From Bacillota bacterium (lineage in GTDB: Bacteria > Bacillota > Sulfobacillia > Sulfobacillales > Sulfobacillaceae): a stretch of DNA of 32,682 bases. The stretch covers positions 1 through 32,682 of the forward strand of contig JAJZZH010000219.1 in NCBI GenBank assembly GCA_021797675.1, given 5' to 3'. Positions 631-20,826 of the stretch are shown here, in pieces. A program made the translations under genes and the position numbers. Numbering within the stretch: the first letter of the stretch is position 1; each line of letters opens with the position of its first letter. The notes under the pieces are model-generated. The model was not told the origin of the DNA, did not search any database, and saw only the letters and a list, made by a program, of their open reading frames with translations.

Positions 631-2298
631 TTAAGACGCAGACCGATGGGCCCGCCAGGCGGTAAATCCGCCCACCAGATTGTACACCCGGGGGTATCCA
701 CGCTGAGTCAACATGCGGGCGGCGACATAACTGCGGTGCCCACTCCGGCAGTAGACCACCACCGGGCGGTCGGCGGCGGGCGGCAGGCGATCCCACTGCC
801 GGCGCAATCCGTCCAAGGGGACGTGCAAGAAATCACCAATTCCTCCCGTTGCGTTGACCTCCTCGGCGTTGCGGACGTCAAGCAGAACGGGTGGGGTCGA
901 GCCTTTGGCCAGCCATTGCTGCAATTGGCCTGGGGTAAGCGGGGTCACCAGTCCGCGGCGCGCATTTTCGGCCGCCATGCCAGTAATCACCACCGCGTCC
1001 TTGGCGGCGGCGAACGGGGGGGCATAGGCGAGATCCAGTTCGCCCATGTCATCCACCGTCATCCGGGCCGAGATGACGGTGGCGAGCACGTCGATCCGTT
1101 TGTCGACGCCGAGCCGGCCGACGATCTGAGCGCCTAATACCCGCCCCGTTTCCGGATGGAAGAGGATCTTGATAAACAGGTCTTGGGCATGCGGATAATA
1201 GCTCGCATGGTCGCCCTTAACCGTGTACATGACCTGATAGGGGACTTTCAGGCGCTCGGCCGACTTTTCGGTCAATCCGGTTACCGCCAGGGTGTAGGGT
1301 TCGACGCGCACGATGGCCGTGCCCAGGGCACCCCGAAATTCCGCTGTGCCGCCCGCGGCATTGGTACCTGCCACGCGTCCCTCTTTGTTCGCGATCCCTG
1401 CCAGTGGCCACCAAGTCGGGCTGCCGGTCACCAGGTCGCGCTTTTCGACCGCATCCCCCGCGGCAAAGATATGGGGGATCGAGGTGGCCATCCGCGCGTC
1501 TACGGCCACGGCCCCGGTCGTTCCCAGCTGTAGGCCCATCTGGTGGGCCAGAGTGACGTCTGGGCGCACCCCCAGGGCCATGACCACCAGGTCTGTGGGG
1601 AGGCTGCCGCCGGACGTCAAATGAACCCGGGAGGGCTCAATCACCGAGACCGTGTCCCTCAAACGGACCGATATCCCCAGGTCATCCAGGCGGTCGAGGA
1701 AATACTGTGCCACATCGGCGTCAACCGGGGGCAAAATCTGCGCAGCGCGGTCCACCAAGGTCACCGAAATACCCCGCCGAGTCAGGACTTCGGCCATCTC
1801 CAGGCCGATAAAACCGGCTCCCAGCACGGTCGCGTGACGGGTGGGACGGGATTCGATGAACGCACGTAGACGGGCAGCGTCGGGAACCGAACGCATTTGA
1901 AAGACATGGTCTCCGTCTTGACCAGGCAGGTTAGCGGAGAGTGTCTGCGCGCCAGGAGCAAGAATCAACTCGTCGTATGGGTGCCAAGAGGAGTCTCCGG
2001 TTTCCCGCGAGATACTCTCCACCCGCTGCGTCGACACGTCGACGCGGGTGACTTCATGGCGCGTCAACACCCGAACCCCAAATCGATGGTCGAAGCTTTG
2101 GGGGGTTTCCAGCAGCAAATCCTCGACGGATTCAATCTCCCGGCCCACGTAATACGGAAGCCCACAGTTGGCAAAGGAGACGTACGGCCCCTTTTCAAAC
2201 ATGATAATCTCGGCGTGTTCATCCATGCGCCGGGCGCGAGTGGCTGCGCTCGCCCCTCCCGCAACCCCGCCGATGATCAGGATGTGCTTAGGCATCAT
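631..2298 (-). CDS. CoA-disulfide reductase/rhodanese fusion (NADH-dependent persulfide reductase type)
   Basis: A flavoprotein of the pyridine nucleotide-disulfide oxidoreductase family, 555 aa, fused to a C-terminal rhodanese domain. The N-terminus has the FAD fold motif (IIGGVAGGASAA, residues 8-19) and the CoA-disulfide reductase active site SFANCGLPYY with the single redox cysteine at 45. A dimerisation domain follows, and the rhodanese part (about 460-555) carries the loop CRSGHRS with the catalytic cysteine near 517. Characterised relatives reduce CoA-disulfide, CoA-persulfide or polysulfide with NAD(P)H. The chosen ATG has GGAGG 9 nt upstream; the reading frame extends further upstream but would run inside the preceding gene. 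It overlaps that rhodanese gene by ATGA, so translation is probably coupled. The role in persulfide or elemental-sulfur handling is inferred from fusion and context. Confidence 0.93.
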   Translation of the reverse strand: MMPKHILIIGGVAGGASAATRARRMDEHAEIIMFEKGPYVSFANCGLPYYVGREIESVEDLLLETPQSFDHRFGVRVLTRHEVTRVDVSTQRVESISRETGDSSWHPYDELILAPGAQTLSANLPGQDGDHVFQMRSVPDAARLRAFIESRPTRHATVLGAGFIGLEMAEVLTRRGISVTLVDRAAQILPPVDADVAQYFLDRLDDLGISVRLRDTVSVIEPSRVHLTSGGSLPTDLVVMALGVRPDVTLAHQMGLQLGTTGAVAVDARMATSIPHIFAAGDAVEKRDLVTGSPTWWPLAGIANKEGRVAGTNAAGGTAEFRGALGTAIVRVEPYTLAVTGLTEKSAERLKVPYQVMYTVKGDHASYYPHAQDLFIKILFHPETGRVLGAQIVGRLGVDKRIDVLATVISARMTVDDMGELDLAYAPPFAAAKDAVVITGMAAENARRGLVTPLTPGQLQQWLAKGSTPPVLLDVRNAEEVNATGGIGDFLHVPLDGLRRQWDRLPPAADRPVVVYCRSGHRSYVAARMLTQRGYPRVYNLVGGFTAWRAHRSAS

Positions 2299-2933
2299 GC
2301 CGGTGCTCCTCCCGTGGAAGTTTGCGGACGAGCCAGCGGGTAACCCGCCGCCATCCATGCGTTCATCCCGTTGAGCACATTGTGGACGCGAAATCCCTGC
2401 AGAGCGAGCCAGACGCTCATGTTGAGGCTTCGGCTGCCGGAACGGCAGATCAGGGCATACTCGCGATGAGGATCGAGTTCGCCCAAGCGCCGGGGCAGAT
2501 GGCCCATCGGCAGCAACATGGCCCCTGGCACGATACCGTCCGCATGTTCATGGGGTTCGCGGATGTCGACGACCACAAAGCGGTCACGGTCTTCGTAGAG
2601 TTCGCCGACGCTGATGTCGCGAACAACGGGCAGCTCCTGGGCCATCCAGGATTCCATGCCGCGATCCCACACCCCTTGCACACTGAGGCCCAAATGGTCG
2701 AGAGCGGCCTTAGCCTGCGGGGCGTTGGTGGCGTCGCCGAAGATGCCCATGGGCGGTTTGGAACCCCGCAACGCTCCGGACAATTGACGCTCAAACGCAT
2801 CAGCTACCCAGGGAAAGGCGTAAGCCGCGGGGACGTGACCCTGATCATAAGCCGATTGACTGCGAACATCCAAGATCACGAGTTGACCATTGGCGGCGCT
2901 CTGACACCATGCTCGCCATTGCTGCAAATCCAT
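2295..2933 (-). CDS. Tandem rhodanese-domain sulfurtransferase
   Basis: A 212-aa protein with two rhodanese domains. The second (about 108-205) has a complete active-site loop, CRSGSRS, with catalytic Cys163. The first (about 1-100) keeps the fold signatures (VILDVRSQSAYDQGHVPAA) but its loop reads FGDATNAP and has no cysteine, so it is probably catalytically dead, as is usual in tandem rhodaneses. Such enzymes move sulfane sulfur from thiosulfate or persulfides to thiol acceptors. The start was set at the ATG with GGGAGGT 9 nt upstream; the in-frame TTG and ATG further upstream overlap that site. It is first in a two-gene operon, overlaps the reductase gene by ATGA and has its own promoter with a palindromic operator. 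Confidence 0.9.
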   Translation of the reverse strand: MDLQQWRAWCQSAANGQLVILDVRSQSAYDQGHVPAAYAFPWVADAFERQLSGALRGSKPPMGIFGDATNAPQAKAALDHLGLSVQGVWDRGMESWMAQELPVVRDISVGELYEDRDRFVVVDIREPHEHADGIVPGAMLLPMGHLPRRLGELDPHREYALICRSGSRSLNMSVWLALQGFRVHNVLNGMNAWMAAGYPLARPQTSTGGAPA

Positions 2934-2974
2934 TGCCCGCATACCTCCCAAATCAGTGTAGAATCGTTAGTGTG

Positions 2975-3004
2975 ATGATACCCCATAGGGTATCATTTAT
3001 GCAA
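2975..3004 (-). promoter_or_regulatory. Promoter with CsoR/CstR-like palindromic operator
   Basis: A perfect inverted repeat with 9-bp arms, ATGATACCC-CATA-GGGTATCAT, occupies 2975-2996. On the minus strand a -35 (TTGCAT, 2999-3004) and a -10 (TATCAT, 2975-2980) are separated by 18 bp, so the palindrome fills the spacer and a bound protein would block polymerase. Sites of the TACCCC...GGGGTA kind are known for the copper sensor CsoR and the persulfide sensor CstR (DUF156 family). CstR controls rhodanese and sulfide-oxidation operons in other Firmicutes, which fits the genes here. No DUF156 regulator gene lies in the window. Confidence 0.72.
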
Positions 3005-3122
3005 TAGGAATTTTTATTGAGGCACAACGATATCATGCTGACTCGTTTAGATACCCGCCGGGGGACAGGATACGGATCGACATCGGGGATGGGCGGCATC
3101 GCGCAACGGGCGGCGATCAGCC

Positions 3123-4331
3123 TTAGCCGCGAGAAGTGGCCGGCGTCCGTTGTCGATCCGTGATTCCGAAGCCCAAGAGGACGGCCATCGCGGCGATCCC
3201 TGCCAGGATCCAAAATGTCGAGGGACAAAATAATCGGGCACCAATACCCGAACCGATCATCATCCCAGCATACATCGCGGTATTGTTCCAGGCCAGGCTG
3301 CTGGCCCGAACACGGAGCGGCACGGTGCCGGCCAGCGCCTTGAGATCGGGAATATAGGCTTGGGCAAAGGCAAATGCCCAGGCCCACAAGATGTCTGTCC
3401 ATAGGGGGAGGAAGGCCGCACTAAATCCCATGCCGATGATCGTCGCCGCTTCGGCCAACTGCGCCAAATGCACCGCGAACCAAGGTCCGCGCCGATCCCC
3501 GAGACGGCCCAGCACATAATTGCCAGCCAAATTGGCGGCTCCGTAACCACTAAGAATATAGAGTAATTCGGTAAAATGGCGGATGCCTTGGCTTTCCAGA
3601 AAAGCGGGGAGATACGTGTAAACCATGCCGACGGCGAAAAATGCCAGCAGACTGGCCGAGAGGGAAGGCCAACTGAGCCGCAGTAGCGTGCGGGCGTCGT
3701 ACCCATGACGGCCGGCAGGTGCGGGATGGGAGGCCAATCGCCACGGACGCAAGACGCCCTGTACAGCCGCGCCCACCGCGACGAGGGCGACGGCGATGGC
3801 AAGCATCGTGCCCCGCCAGCCCAGCTCCCGGGCGAACAACATTCCCAACGGCACGCCGGCCACCGTGGACAGAGAAAATCCCATCGAGACCACGGACATG
3901 GCGCGAGCGTGCATGCGTCGAGGGATCACGTCGGCTACCAGGGCATATGCCATGGAGCTGACCGCTCCCGCGCTCATCCCGGTAAACGCCCGGGCGACCA
4001 CGAGCAGTGGAAACGTTGGCGCCAGACCAGTGAGGGCGTCGAAGACGACAAAACCGCCCAATCCCCAGTGCAAAACCTTCCGATGCCCCAGATGGTCGGC
4101 GAGCCCGCCCGCGAGCGGAGAAGCCAGGGCCGAGCCCGCGGCGAAGACGGTGACCAACCAGCCGACACCGCCCGCGCTGACATGAAAACTGCGCGCGATG
4201 GGCAGTACAAACGGCGCGATAAGGTTGAGATCGCTGCCTACTACAAACATCAGCAGAGAAAAAACTACGGCCACGGTCCACGGGTTCAGGCCGGAGCGTG
4301 CGGATCGTTCCGGCACGATGGGCGGCGGGAT
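3123..4331 (-). CDS. MFS transporter, DHA/AraJ-like efflux type
   Basis: A multi-pass membrane protein of about 400 aa with the hydrophobicity of a twelve-helix major facilitator. The loop between helices 2 and 3 has the family signature (GGLADHLGHRKVL), and a second such loop (LGRLGDRRGP) follows helix 8, as expected from the duplicated fold. The substrate cannot be read from sequence. It lies between the DsrE-like gene and the rhodanese operon, so export of a sulfur compound is possible but only inferred. The start is unusual: a perfect GGAGGT (4338-4343) is 6 nt before an ATC at 4331. The nearest upstream standard start is GTG at 4358, which has no ribosome binding site, and the next GTG downstream is too far from the site. 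The coordinates use ATC; 4358 is the alternative. Confidence 0.85.
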   Translation of the reverse strand: MPPPIVPERSARSGLNPWTVAVVFSLLMFVVGSDLNLIAPFVLPIARSFHVSAGGVGWLVTVFAAGSALASPLAGGLADHLGHRKVLHWGLGGFVVFDALTGLAPTFPLLVVARAFTGMSAGAVSSMAYALVADVIPRRMHARAMSVVSMGFSLSTVAGVPLGMLFARELGWRGTMLAIAVALVAVGAAVQGVLRPWRLASHPAPAGRHGYDARTLLRLSWPSLSASLLAFFAVGMVYTYLPAFLESQGIRHFTELLYILSGYGAANLAGNYVLGRLGDRRGPWFAVHLAQLAEAATIIGMGFSAAFLPLWTDILWAWAFAFAQAYIPDLKALAGTVPLRVRASSLAWNNTAMYAGMMIGSGIGARLFCPSTFWILAGIAAMAVLLGFGITDRQRTPATSRG

Positions 4332-4491
4332 ACCAGCACCTCCAGTCACGGCGAACACCTAAGGACAGAACGACGGGGCTCCCGCGCCGGGAAGCCTCTT
4401 CTATTCTGCCCCAATTTGTCCTTGCCGTTGCGGAAGTCTGGTGAAAACTCCGCACGGTTGGCCATATGGCCGTCTACGTGAGGCACCGTGC

Positions 4492-4836
4492 TTAGACGCC
4501 GATGATTTGGTATCCTTGCTCGACGAGGTCCACGATCACCGATCCCGCGGGCTCCAAGACGACCCCGGTGGCCGAGACGACTTGTTCATCGAGCCCCATT
4601 TGCTGCACGTTGGCGGGGCAAGCCCGTGTGCGCACCTCGGATTCTTTCAACGCCGCCAGCGCCCGCTGGATGGCCGGAATCTCGGCCGTGGTCAAGGTGA
4701 CTCCGGGGCCAAAAAGATAGACTTCAACGTCCTGCTGATGGCGCACAGTGCGCAGTCTGTGGGCCAAAACCAGGGCCGATAAGGCTTTATTAGCTTGGTC
4801 GGGACCCGCGGTTATCCAAAACGCGATCTTCGCCAT
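4492..4836 (-). CDS. DsrE/DsrF-like sulfur-carrier family protein
   Basis: A small soluble protein of 114 aa with the DsrE/F-like fold: an N-terminal strand (KIAFWITAGPDQ), a helix with conserved alanines, then VEVYLFGPGV, and a single cysteine at 73 (RACPANVQQMGL) at the position used as a persulfide carrier in several family members. ATG has GGAGG 8 nt upstream. It is the first gene of the minus-strand sulfur cluster, 160 bp before the MFS gene, and possibly co-transcribed with it. DsrE-like proteins next to rhodaneses commonly act as sulfur relays in sulfur-oxidising bacteria; that role here is inferred. Confidence 0.85.
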   Translation of the reverse strand: MAKIAFWITAGPDQANKALSALVLAHRLRTVRHQQDVEVYLFGPGVTLTTAEIPAIQRALAALKESEVRTRACPANVQQMGLDEQVVSATGVVLEPAGSVIVDLVEQGYQIIGV

Positions 4837-6787: not shown

Positions 6788-6821
6788 GGTCAAAACCCCG
6801 GTTCGACCCGGGGTTTTGACC
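6788..6821. terminator. Bidirectional terminator between convergent genes
   Basis: A perfect 14-bp stem (6788-6801/6808-6821) with loop TTCGAC lies 6 bases after the EXLDI stop codon and 31 bases from the end of the converging foldase gene. The stem itself contains AAAA on one arm and TTTT on the other, which suits termination in both directions. Confidence 0.85.
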
Positions 6822-17682: not shown

Positions 17683-18816
17683 TTAGAGGCGCTGGAGCAC
17701 GCTGCGGGTTCGGGCCCGTCGCAGCGGCACCGCCAGGCGTTCCAGGCGTTCGTTGGCATAGGCAAAGAACTGCTGGAACGAGGCACAGAAATAGTCCGCG
17801 GTATGCTCAGGCTGATTGTCCCATTGTCGGTTGCGCGGGCAGCCCCCCCGGCAATGCGCAAGCCACTGGCAACGCTGGCAGGTTCCCGGCAGATCCGGCT
17901 TCATGTCGGCAAAGCGTTGATAGACGTCAGTGCTAAACGCGTCAATCAAGGCCATGTCAGCGATGTTGCCGATGCGCCACTCGTCGCCGATATAAAAGTC
18001 ACAGGGGTAGAGATCCCCATTGGACTCCACAATCAGGTGGGCGGGACAGCGCTTGCGCATGGTGCACAGATCGGGTTGCAGGCCCACGTAGGACTGCACC
18101 ACATTGTCAAAAAACCGGATCGACGTATCGGGATGACCGTCGCGATACCAAACGTCGAACACTTCACAGAGAAAGTCGCCATACGCTTGAGGACTGATGG
18201 CAAAAATTCCCGGATCCTCCACGGTCTGGGACTGAAACGCCATCTGGGGAATGAACTGGATCCAGCGGAAGCCGTGCTCACGGTAAAAGGCCATCAGTTC
18301 GCCGCCTCTGCCGACATTATGTGGGCCGATGACGGTCAAAATGTTGAAATCCACACGTTCTTGCTCCAGCCAACGGATGCCTCGCATCACCCGATTGAAG
18401 GTGCCGTGACCACCCGCATCCACGCGATGCGCGTCATGCACCGCCTGAGGACCGTCTAGGCTGACGCCGACCAAAAACCGGTATTCACGAAAAAACTGGG
18501 CCCACGCCTGGTTAATGAGTACCCCGTTGGTTTGCACCGCATTACTGATCGTGGTCCGCGGGCGGGCGACTTCCGCCTCCAAGGCGACTACGCGCTGAAA
18601 AAAGGGAAGGCCCGCCAACAGCGGCTCCCCTCCCTGCCAAGCAATCGAGGCCACCGGCCCCGAGGTGGCAAGGTAGTCGCGCAAGGTCTTCTCCAAAATT
18701 GGCGGCGGCGGGATACGAATCCCCTGCGGCCGTCCCAACACCCGGCTATAATAGCAATAATCGCAGGCCAAATTACAGTCTTCGGAAACGGTCTTCCACA
18801 TGATGCCGTACTGCAC
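17683..18816 (-). CDS. Anaerobic sulfatase-maturating enzyme (radical SAM/SPASM)
   Basis: A 377-aa radical SAM enzyme that makes the formylglycine of sulfatases from cysteine or serine. The cluster-binding motif is CNLACDYC (cysteines 14, 18, 21), then the GGEPLL motif at the SAM site. The C-terminal SPASM part has the expected set of cysteines (CTMRKRC, YPCDFY, CQRCQWLAHCRGGC, YFCASF) for two more iron-sulfur clusters. GGAGGGG is 8 nt before a GTG start at 18816; the upstream frame has no such signal. It lies 114 bp downstream of a sulfatase gene on the same strand, so the two are likely co-transcribed as substrate and maturase. Confidence 0.93.
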   Translation of the reverse strand: MQYGIMWKTVSEDCNLACDYCYYSRVLGRPQGIRIPPPPILEKTLRDYLATSGPVASIAWQGGEPLLAGLPFFQRVVALEAEVARPRTTISNAVQTNGVLINQAWAQFFREYRFLVGVSLDGPQAVHDAHRVDAGGHGTFNRVMRGIRWLEQERVDFNILTVIGPHNVGRGGELMAFYREHGFRWIQFIPQMAFQSQTVEDPGIFAISPQAYGDFLCEVFDVWYRDGHPDTSIRFFDNVVQSYVGLQPDLCTMRKRCPAHLIVESNGDLYPCDFYIGDEWRIGNIADMALIDAFSTDVYQRFADMKPDLPGTCQRCQWLAHCRGGCPRNRQWDNQPEHTADYFCASFQQFFAYANERLERLAVPLRRARTRSVLQRL

Positions 18817-18930
18817 CGTCTGATCCCCTCCCGCACGTCCGTGTCCCTGCGCCTCAACCCACATCCTTAACCGCCTCTGCCAGCGCACCGCGCGATCGCA
18901 CGGGCCTCATCCGCCTTCGCCCAGTGATGC

Positions 18931-20274
18931 TTACGGCAATTCCTCCGGCCGTACCCGCCGTTGGCCGCCCTCACGCGGCGGATGAGGTCGAATCTCCGCC
19001 GCGGGTTCCCCCGCCTCGCGCATCTTGGCCACCAGCCGCTGGCGCAGGCGGGCAGCCAGGTCGGCATGCGAAGCGAGCCCGGCCAAATTAGTCAGTTCGT
19101 AAGGGTCAGCCTGAAGGTCGTAAAGAAATTCCTCGACGTATTCCTCCGCGAACATCACTCGATACCCGTCTTGCCCCGGGGCCGACACGCTATATTTCCA
19201 GCGCGGGGTGCGCAACGCTCGCCCAACCTGCGACTCGCTGATTTGAATCAGGACCTCGTTTGCCCAATCCTGCACCGAACGCTCCACCAACGGCACTAAT
19301 GAGCGACCTTGAAGGCCTTCCGGCACACCCAATCCTGCCGCATCGAACAAGGTCGGCGCCACATCGATCAAGCTGACCAATTCTTGCCGCGTGCCCCCGG
19401 AACGAAAGGGGCCGCCACCCATCACCATGGGAATCCGAATCGAGCTCTCGTGACAACTCCGCTTGTATTCCCCGTTGCGTGTCTTGAAATGATTACCGTG
19501 GTCACACGTATAGAGTACGATCGTGTCTTCGGCCATCCGCAAGCTTTCCAGCGCATCCAAAACTCTGCCAAAGGCCTCGTCGAGCCGCTTCACCATCCCA
19601 TAATATCCGCCCAGCTGTTGCGCCGCACTGCCGCCGAGCGCAGCCAGGTCCGGCGGCATCCAGCGTCCGTGGTAGGTATCCCGGTAGACATCGGGCGCCG
19701 GGTAGTCGTCGCGATGATTCTGATGGTGTGGCTCGAGGAACGACAAAAAGAGCAGGAAGGGATGGTCCGTGTTGTCCGCAATATAGCGAATGGCCGCGTC
19801 GGTCAGCGCATCCACCCGGTAGCCGGGCAGATGAACGGCTTCCGAGGCCTGATCATAGACCACGGTGTCATAGGCATCCGACGTAAACTCCAGGGCGTTT
19901 GCAGCCAGCCAATATGCATAGCCCCCGCGTTGTTCGGAGGGAACGGGTTCTTGGCCGGCCAAGTGCCACTTCCCGATATATCCGGTGCGATACCCGACCG
20001 CCTTCAGCCGGTCAGCCAGCGTAGTCGCCGACGCGGGGAGCGGCACCCCGTTGCGAAAGCAGCCGGTGGTCGTCGGGTAGAGCCCCGTCTGAACTGCCGA
20101 CCGTGCCGGGCCACACACTGGCTGGCAGGTAAAAGCATGCTCAAAGAGCGTTCCCCGGCGGGCGAACCGGTCAAGATTCGGGGTAAGCCCCAACGGGTTG
20201 CCATAGGCCCCGACGGTATCCCAGCGTTGCTGATCGGTAAAAAATACGACGATATTAGGGGATGGCTTCGCCAT
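18931..20274 (-). CDS. Sulfatase (Cys-type, formylglycine-dependent)
   Basis: A 447-aa type I sulfatase of the alkaline phosphatase superfamily. The metal-binding N-terminus reads FFTDQQRWDTVGAYG, and the sulfatase signature is C54-GPAR (CxPxR), the cysteine converted to formylglycine. KWHLAG and YTCDHGNH supply further metal and substrate residues. No export signal is seen, so it is probably cytoplasmic, as usual for targets of anaerobic-type maturases. GGAGGT is 7 nt before the ATG. The natural substrate (choline sulfate, aryl or sugar sulfate) cannot be read from sequence. It lies directly upstream of the maturase gene. Confidence 0.94.
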   Translation of the reverse strand: MAKPSPNIVVFFTDQQRWDTVGAYGNPLGLTPNLDRFARRGTLFEHAFTCQPVCGPARSAVQTGLYPTTTGCFRNGVPLPASATTLADRLKAVGYRTGYIGKWHLAGQEPVPSEQRGGYAYWLAANALEFTSDAYDTVVYDQASEAVHLPGYRVDALTDAAIRYIADNTDHPFLLFLSFLEPHHQNHRDDYPAPDVYRDTYHGRWMPPDLAALGGSAAQQLGGYYGMVKRLDEAFGRVLDALESLRMAEDTIVLYTCDHGNHFKTRNGEYKRSCHESSIRIPMVMGGGPFRSGGTRQELVSLIDVAPTLFDAAGLGVPEGLQGRSLVPLVERSVQDWANEVLIQISESQVGRALRTPRWKYSVSAPGQDGYRVMFAEEYVEEFLYDLQADPYELTNLAGLASHADLAARLRQRLVAKMREAGEPAAEIRPHPPREGGQRRVRPEELP

Positions 20275-20826
20275 CGCGCAAACCTCCAAATGTCTTCCAA
20301 GGTGGGTGCCGCCATTACCCGGATATAATGTTCGTTCGGCAAAGCCGCGTCGTAAATCCGAGCGCGCCACTGGCGCACGTTCGCTGCGCGTCGACGCGCC
20401 GCCCACTGCGCAGGTCGGTCGCCGGGAGTCTTGTTTACGGCGGCGCCAAGCTCCCCATCTCGTTTCCCACTGTATCATCATTTCACCCCACCACGCTACC
20501 TTGGCAGAAGCGAAATGCATGACTGCTTGGCAAACTCCCGATAACCCCGGATGGCTACGACGCGGTTTTGCCGCGCTCCGCCTAGCGCGGGCTGTGGTGG
20601 GGATCCCACGATGGGGAAATCTCCGACGGGCTCAGGCAGGAACTGGCATCCTTTTAGCGAATTGCCTATATGGATCCGGGAAATGCCGGGCGTCGAAACT
20701 ACCCTTTCAATATCACGTCAATTCAAATGGGTCAACGGATATCTTGGCCCGCAGCCGTTGGCAAGGTCACAGAAGTTTACAGATGGTGCAGATGAGAAGA
20801 TGAGAAGATGCGAAGGAGGGTCCCTG
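20275..20826. other. Intergenic region between divergent sulfatase and protease genes
   Basis: This 552-bp stretch must carry promoters for both divergent genes. No clear -35/-10 pair or riboswitch was found. Just before the protease ribosome binding site there is a short direct repeat, GATGAGAA-GATGAGAA (20791-20806). The open frames that extend both genes upstream have no ribosome binding sites. Confidence 0.4.

Follow-up and report, generated by a model that had tools for sequence, protein, structure and literature searches.

ScCsoR (SCO0620) of Streptomyces coelicolor recognizes the operator ATACCn6GGTAT, from which it is released by polysulfide through Cys37 and Cys66, and controls the genes of a PDO, a rhodanese and a TauE protein as well as its own (PMC7533328). 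In Enterococcus faecalis, a cst-like operon composed of CstR, RhdA, RhdB and CoAPR lacks SQR, and its CstR carries Cys31 and Cys62 (PMC9405070). The CstR-YrkD proteins of S. aureus and Bacillus are also DUF156 repressors, which are released by sulfane sulfur and control rhodanese and persulfide genes (PMC9918477), and TTHA1953 of Thermus thermophilus, with Cys39 and Cys68 (+29) and the operator TACNNTACNNNNGTANNGTA, controls Sox genes (PMC10318464). The locus described here lies in a window of 32,682 nucleotides (the whole stretch of DNA analyzed, G000:C206), and was compared with a sister species (G003, locus L044), with an S. acidophilus-like genome (G020) and across 34 genomes of the family. 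Read from the sequence, an inverted repeat in this window probably serves as operator for a DUF156 repressor that responds to sulfane sulfur, most likely the protein L003, over rhodanese and reductase genes. The features of the locus are the following:

631-2298, minus strand: CoA-disulfide/CoA-persulfide reductase with a C-terminal rhodanese (PF07992, PF02852, PF00581)
2295-2933, minus strand: tandem-rhodanese protein (PF00581)
2975-2996, no strand: putative operator, inverted repeat ATGATACCC-CATA-GGGTATCAT, with the core ATACC-N6-GGTAT at 2978-2993
2975-2980, minus strand: -10-like hexamer TATCAT, inside an operator arm
2999-3004, minus strand: -35-like hexamer TTGCAT, 18 bp from the -10
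3051-3066, no strand: possible second, weaker operator (8/10; its L044 equivalent, 9/10)
3123-4358, minus strand: MFS transporter (DHA1-like), neighbour gene (PF07690), no own operator found
4492-4836, minus strand: DsrE-like single-domain protein, neighbour gene (PF02635), no operator found

The first-pass annotation had described four genes in the same direction, and all of them do lie on the minus strand between 631 and 4836 and belong, according to Pfam, to the families proposed. The start of the reductase gene overlaps the stop of the rhodanese gene (ATGATG), and tandem rhodanese and reductase thus look like one unit. As read from the translation, the active-site loop CRSGSR of the tandem rhodanese is kept solely in the C-terminal domain. 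The NCBIfam model closest to the reductase at 631-2298 is that of CoA-disulfide reductase, with a score under the curated cut-off, and its nearest solved structures are 3icr (a CoA-disulfide reductase), 3nta and 8a56, the CoAPR of E. faecalis. The MFS and DsrE genes are found upstream of this pair, separated by gaps, and no ATACC-N6-GGTAT site of at least 8/10 appeared in the scanned regions upstream of either gene. Moreover, the linkage of the MFS gene with rhodaneses is confined to the genus, and its orthologues in other genera are not near rhodaneses. Both genes were rejected as co-regulated partners for these reasons, and the palindrome is predicted to govern the rhodanese pair and the overlapping reductase gene alone, the four genes not forming one unit under it; a dedicated MFS partner can no longer be regarded as a peculiarity of the arrangement. 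No DUF156 gene accompanies the cluster in the window, the nearest candidates being on other contigs, and in related genera the regulator gene adjoins such an operon (for example, G006:C244 and G007:C4). In the G020 counterpart (L045, G020:C1:3303000-3313000), the operon looks interrupted: a transposase-like gene at 2261-3607 of the locus separates the rhodanese pair from the CoA-disulfide reductase, and the N-terminus of the latter is read in a different frame.

Elsewhere in the window, an element of about 126 bp with terminal inverted repeats of about 20 bp (CTAGGAGC.TGTCCAT.AAT) occupies both contig ends (1-127 and 32612-32681); its roughly 30 genomic copies, of 95-100% identity, have the look of a recently spread MITE-like sequence that breaks the assembly. 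At 17683-20520, the translations show a radical-SAM protein that looks like an anaerobic sulfatase maturase, adjoining a sulfatase-like gene, and a terminator-like sequence, a perfect inverted repeat of 14 bp around a 6-nt loop, lies between two converging genes at 6788-6821.

The repeat found between the MFS and rhodanese genes is formed by 9-bp arms around a 4-nt centre. It had been presented as a perfect 22-bp palindrome, and is in fact imperfect, being symmetric at 20 of its 22 bases. The minus-strand promoter TTGCAT (3004-2999)-18-TATCAT (2980-2975), whose -35 is weak (3/6), precedes the rhodanese pair and the reductase-rhodanese gene. A position exactly in the spacer, as first proposed, is right for 16 of the 18 spacer bases, which the repeat overlaps, but not for its full extent, which also covers the entire -10. 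The core, ATACCCTATGGGGTAT, is an exact fit to the ScCsoR consensus. First-order shuffling of the 188-bp intergenic gap yields arms of at least 9 in 0.6% of cases; as the chance statistics in this one window were weak, the case was built on conservation.

As regards the orthologous rhodanese pairs, for which a check of the upstream regions had been proposed, the site is kept at the same spacing in both the sister species and G020, whose orthologues show 80% and 60% protein identity, respectively. In the sister species, the site is ATACCCTGTGGGGTAT and the promoter (TTGCAT, 18 bp, TATTAT) keeps the same -35 and the same spacing; 15 of 16 bases are identical in the site core, against 80 of 139 aligned positions outside promoter and site. 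The G020 promoter, TTGATT-18-TATTAT, carries ATACCATTAGGGGTAT in identical register. Remoter tandem rhodaneses (about 35-43% identity) have sites ahead of their own operons, often in front of an MBL-fold, persulfide-dioxygenase-like gene.

A search of both strands of the 34 family genomes gave 169 matches to ATACC-N5-GGGTAT versus 28 for the reversed pattern. Among the 120 sites listed, 51 are followed within 2.6 kb by a tandem rhodanese or a member of the site-linked DUF156 subclass, and a simple promoter scan placed many sites just past the -10 or within the spacer, where they overlap the -10. In a Pfam survey of 73 first genes, hand-chosen from those adjoining perfect sites, the most frequent classes were rhodanese (21), DUF156 (14), MBL (11) and TauE (9), followed by DUF302 (3), CoADR (2), Grx (2) and DsrE2 (2). 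Two perfect ATACC-N6-GGTAT sites of G020, one before a NiFe-hydrogenase small subunit gene on a plasmid-size contig (L161, 2158) and one before a protoglobin/chemotaxis gene (L159, 1845), are possible outliers of the regulon. In the genome of the window itself, the pattern is only mildly enriched (6 matches versus 3 reversed) and three of the six matches fall inside coding sequence: those on C212, C226 and C43 were rejected as chance for this reason, and the match on C101 is also in an open frame. Nevertheless, the search for further genomic copies suggested by the first-pass annotation did lead to sulfur genes, with a second clear site at C220:14172, before two single-rhodanese genes, and to a 9/10 copy at the regulator operon of C160. 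The C220 site is conserved in G003 and similar to that at G020:127675. In G003, an identical 16-mer stands ahead of a TauE gene, of which no orthologue was found in the genome of the window.

The same genome encodes three DUF156 proteins (PF02583), the family in which the cognate regulator had been expected. L001 is of the CsoR type, with C-H-C copper ligands, and adjoins a P-type ATPase-like reading frame. The surroundings of L002 (G000:C198) are like those of sHdr loci, with DsrE2, thioredoxin and a GcvH-like lipoyl-binding protein, and the neighbours of L003 (G000:C160:38051-38335) are a thioredoxin-fold protein, DUF302 and glutaredoxin. L003 is not the first gene of its operon, whose promoter, TTGACT-17-TATAAT, contains ATACGGCCGGGGGTAT in the spacer; this site scores 9/10, also in the sister species. 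Two types of DUF156 protein occur in the family: the copper type, and another whose cysteines stand at +0 and +24 and which has no His at +25 and, with the exception of one sHdr-linked protein, no Cys at +29. Each of the 37 distinct segments representing this subclass has C0 and C24, and the subclass forms one clade in a tree of the family's own sequences, with L002 and L003 together against CsoR. The first cysteine of L003 occupies the X position of CsoR, but the Cys-His-Cys (X-Y-Z) copper ligands are not completed, positions +25 and +29 being Ser and Asn, and the second cysteine, at +24, does not stand about 29 residues on as in CstR-type proteins (C31/C60 type). CstR-type sensors leave the DNA on persulfidation, with a di- or trisulfide between subunits. 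On helix 2, both cysteines of the +24 class map to one hydrophobic stripe, which makes a C0/C24 contact between subunits plausible.

The distribution of the site follows these subclasses. ATACC-N6-GGTAT was found upstream of none of the 39 copper-type CsoR genes and none of the 11 sHdr-linked DUF156 genes of the family, whereas the remaining C0/C24 autoregulated clade, which includes L003, shows a perfect site at most 400 bp upstream in 22 of about 33 rows. The preference for persulfide over copper expressed in the first-pass annotation is supported, since the site is absent from CsoR-type genes and present at most members of a non-copper DUF156 subclass. Among other Bacillota sampled, the +24 type is encoded at three loci, which carry a 10/10 site, a 9/10 site and two 10/10 sites, respectively, and no site of at least 9/10 was detected at the three copper- or CstR-like loci checked with them. 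C0/C24 proteins are encountered both in relatives of Sulfobacillus and, beside iron-sulfur/cytochrome electron-transfer operons, in unrelated Bacillota. Those from outside the family (L222, L233 and L243) fall outside the Sulfobacillus-family clade in a 91-column tree, and therefore either convergence or early divergence is possible. In two of these cases, L222 (G152, 1426-1886) and L243 (G117, 1453-1928), the DUF156 gene is divergent from an operon of a Tat-signal 4Fe-4S ferredoxin and a cytochrome-b-like protein, with perfect ATACC-N6-GGTAT sites between the divergent genes, an arrangement that suggests a sulfur- or polysulfide-respiration target.

The co-occurrence of the TACC/GGTA palindrome with the L003 subclass, and its position over promoters, are what would be expected if L003 controlled the sulfane-sulfur genes; the location of L003 on another contig, away from the window genes, counts against it. 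An alternative regulator is L002, which could bind the site alone or share it with L003, tying the rhodanese pair to sHdr sulfur oxidation. L002 has the C0/C24 cysteines, the company of sulfur genes described above and a place in the same clade as L003, but the lack of an upstream site throughout the sHdr-linked subclass, together with the site present in the L003 operon, renders this explanation unlikely. In any case, this second C0/C24 protein, which shows no upstream site of its own, may cross-bind, and the sHdr-linked DUF156 proteins of the L009/L002 type probably represent a second regulator, whose operator is different.

Binding by the copper sensor L001, which would make the rhodanese genes part of a copper response, is less likely still. 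CsoR sites can resemble the repeat (TAC...GTA with G/C runs) and a CsoR with C-H-C ligands is encoded in the genome, but the promoter of this csoR bears a different G-rich repeat, CCCCCCCAGGGGGGG, before its TATAAT, the genes following the site are sulfane-sulfur and not copper genes, and the absence of the site from all 39 CsoR-type genes of the family led to the rejection of copper CsoR as cognate regulator. Finally, a chance palindrome, or the site of another regulator family conserved merely through recent ancestry, would agree with the weak enrichment in the genome of the window, but is highly improbable for a site that persists in identical register at 60% protein identity, is enriched over 34 genomes and precedes functionally coherent genes.

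Control by L003 in response to sulfane sulfur is therefore the reading retained, in which the site, its place in the promoter, its conservation, the members of the regulon and the co-occurrence with one subclass are taken directly from the DNA. The persulfide reading is supported by the sulfane-sulfur genes that follow the sites, by the operator shared with ScCsoR and by the precedent of CstR in Enterococcus. We infer the binding itself, the DUF156 protein involved, the effector and the cysteine chemistry. At low persulfide, the repressor would sit on ATACC-N6-GGTAT over the -10 and spacer, so that the genes of the tandem rhodanese and the reductase-rhodanese are not transcribed. A rise of persulfide or polysulfide in the cell would lead to modification of the repressor cysteines and to its departure from the DNA, a release of the site by sulfane sulfur that is proposed by analogy with ScCsoR. 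Once derepressed, both enzymes would transfer sulfane sulfur and reduce CoA-persulfide. A sulfur response is independently supported by the S. acidophilus rhodanese TPY_0110, which reaches 66.4 RPKM on sulfur versus 3.9 on ferrous sulfate, a 17-fold difference (PMC5114278), although other differences between growth on sulfur and on iron could explain this rise. TPY_0110 was matched to the site-bearing gene at G020:127727 by the gene order rhodanese-DsrE-LysR-SoeABC.

In comparison with the known systems, the operator, the type of regulon and the combination of rhodaneses and CoA-persulfide reductase without SQR are already described, and the new element is likely the cysteine spacing of the probable regulator. 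The open-licence papers searched contained neither a description of the +24 spacing nor a report linking a DUF156/CsoR protein to sulfane sulfur in Sulfobacillus. The locus resembles the ScCsoR system in its predicted DUF156 repressor and autoregulation, in its operator consensus, and in the PDO, rhodanese and TauE classes of the wider regulon; the whole ScCsoR-type target set (PDO, rhodanese, TauE and regulator) is found under the site at the level of the family, and rhodaneses, CoADR and regulator (9/10 site) in the genome of the window. However, in the window operon a CoA-persulfide reductase takes the place of the PDO and TauE targets, the candidate regulator gene lies elsewhere, and the ScCsoR cysteines are +29 apart, whereas L003 has them at +0 and +24, with none at +29. 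With the E. faecalis operon it shares rhodaneses and a CoA-persulfide reductase-rhodanese under a DUF156 persulfide sensor, here a predicted one. Neither operon has SQR, and this lack, initially seen as a distinctive trait, is not one. As in cst operons, rhodanese and CoA-persulfide reductase lie under one operator in the window; unlike in E. faecalis, a single protein holds two rhodanese domains, and the likely regulator is encoded at an unlinked place rather than as part of the operon system. The CstR-YrkD clusters differ by including SQR and PDO and by their CstR-type cysteine pair, and TTHA1953 offers the parallel of a DUF156 dithiol repressor in a sulfur oxidiser with sulfur-gene targets away from its own locus, as proposed here.

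The cysteine spacing of L003, which the first-pass annotation did not anticipate, differs from those of CstR, YrkD, ScCsoR and TTHA1953. The chances are about even that the C0/C24 type of DUF156 protein makes up a sulfane-sulfur sensor class of its own, reading the ScCsoR operator with a shifted cysteine pair; if the class is real, this shift implies a different sensing geometry. DUF156 control by sulfane sulfur would extend to the acidophilic sulfur and iron oxidisers used in bioleaching, for which none of the papers searched describes it, and DUF156 proteins could be sorted by a testable rule, with the second Cys at +24 or +29 and a His at +25 for copper. In this family, the site accompanies a single branch of the +24 type and in no case the copper type, and, if +24 proteins do sense persulfide, the disulfide geometry of CstR would not be the sole solution.
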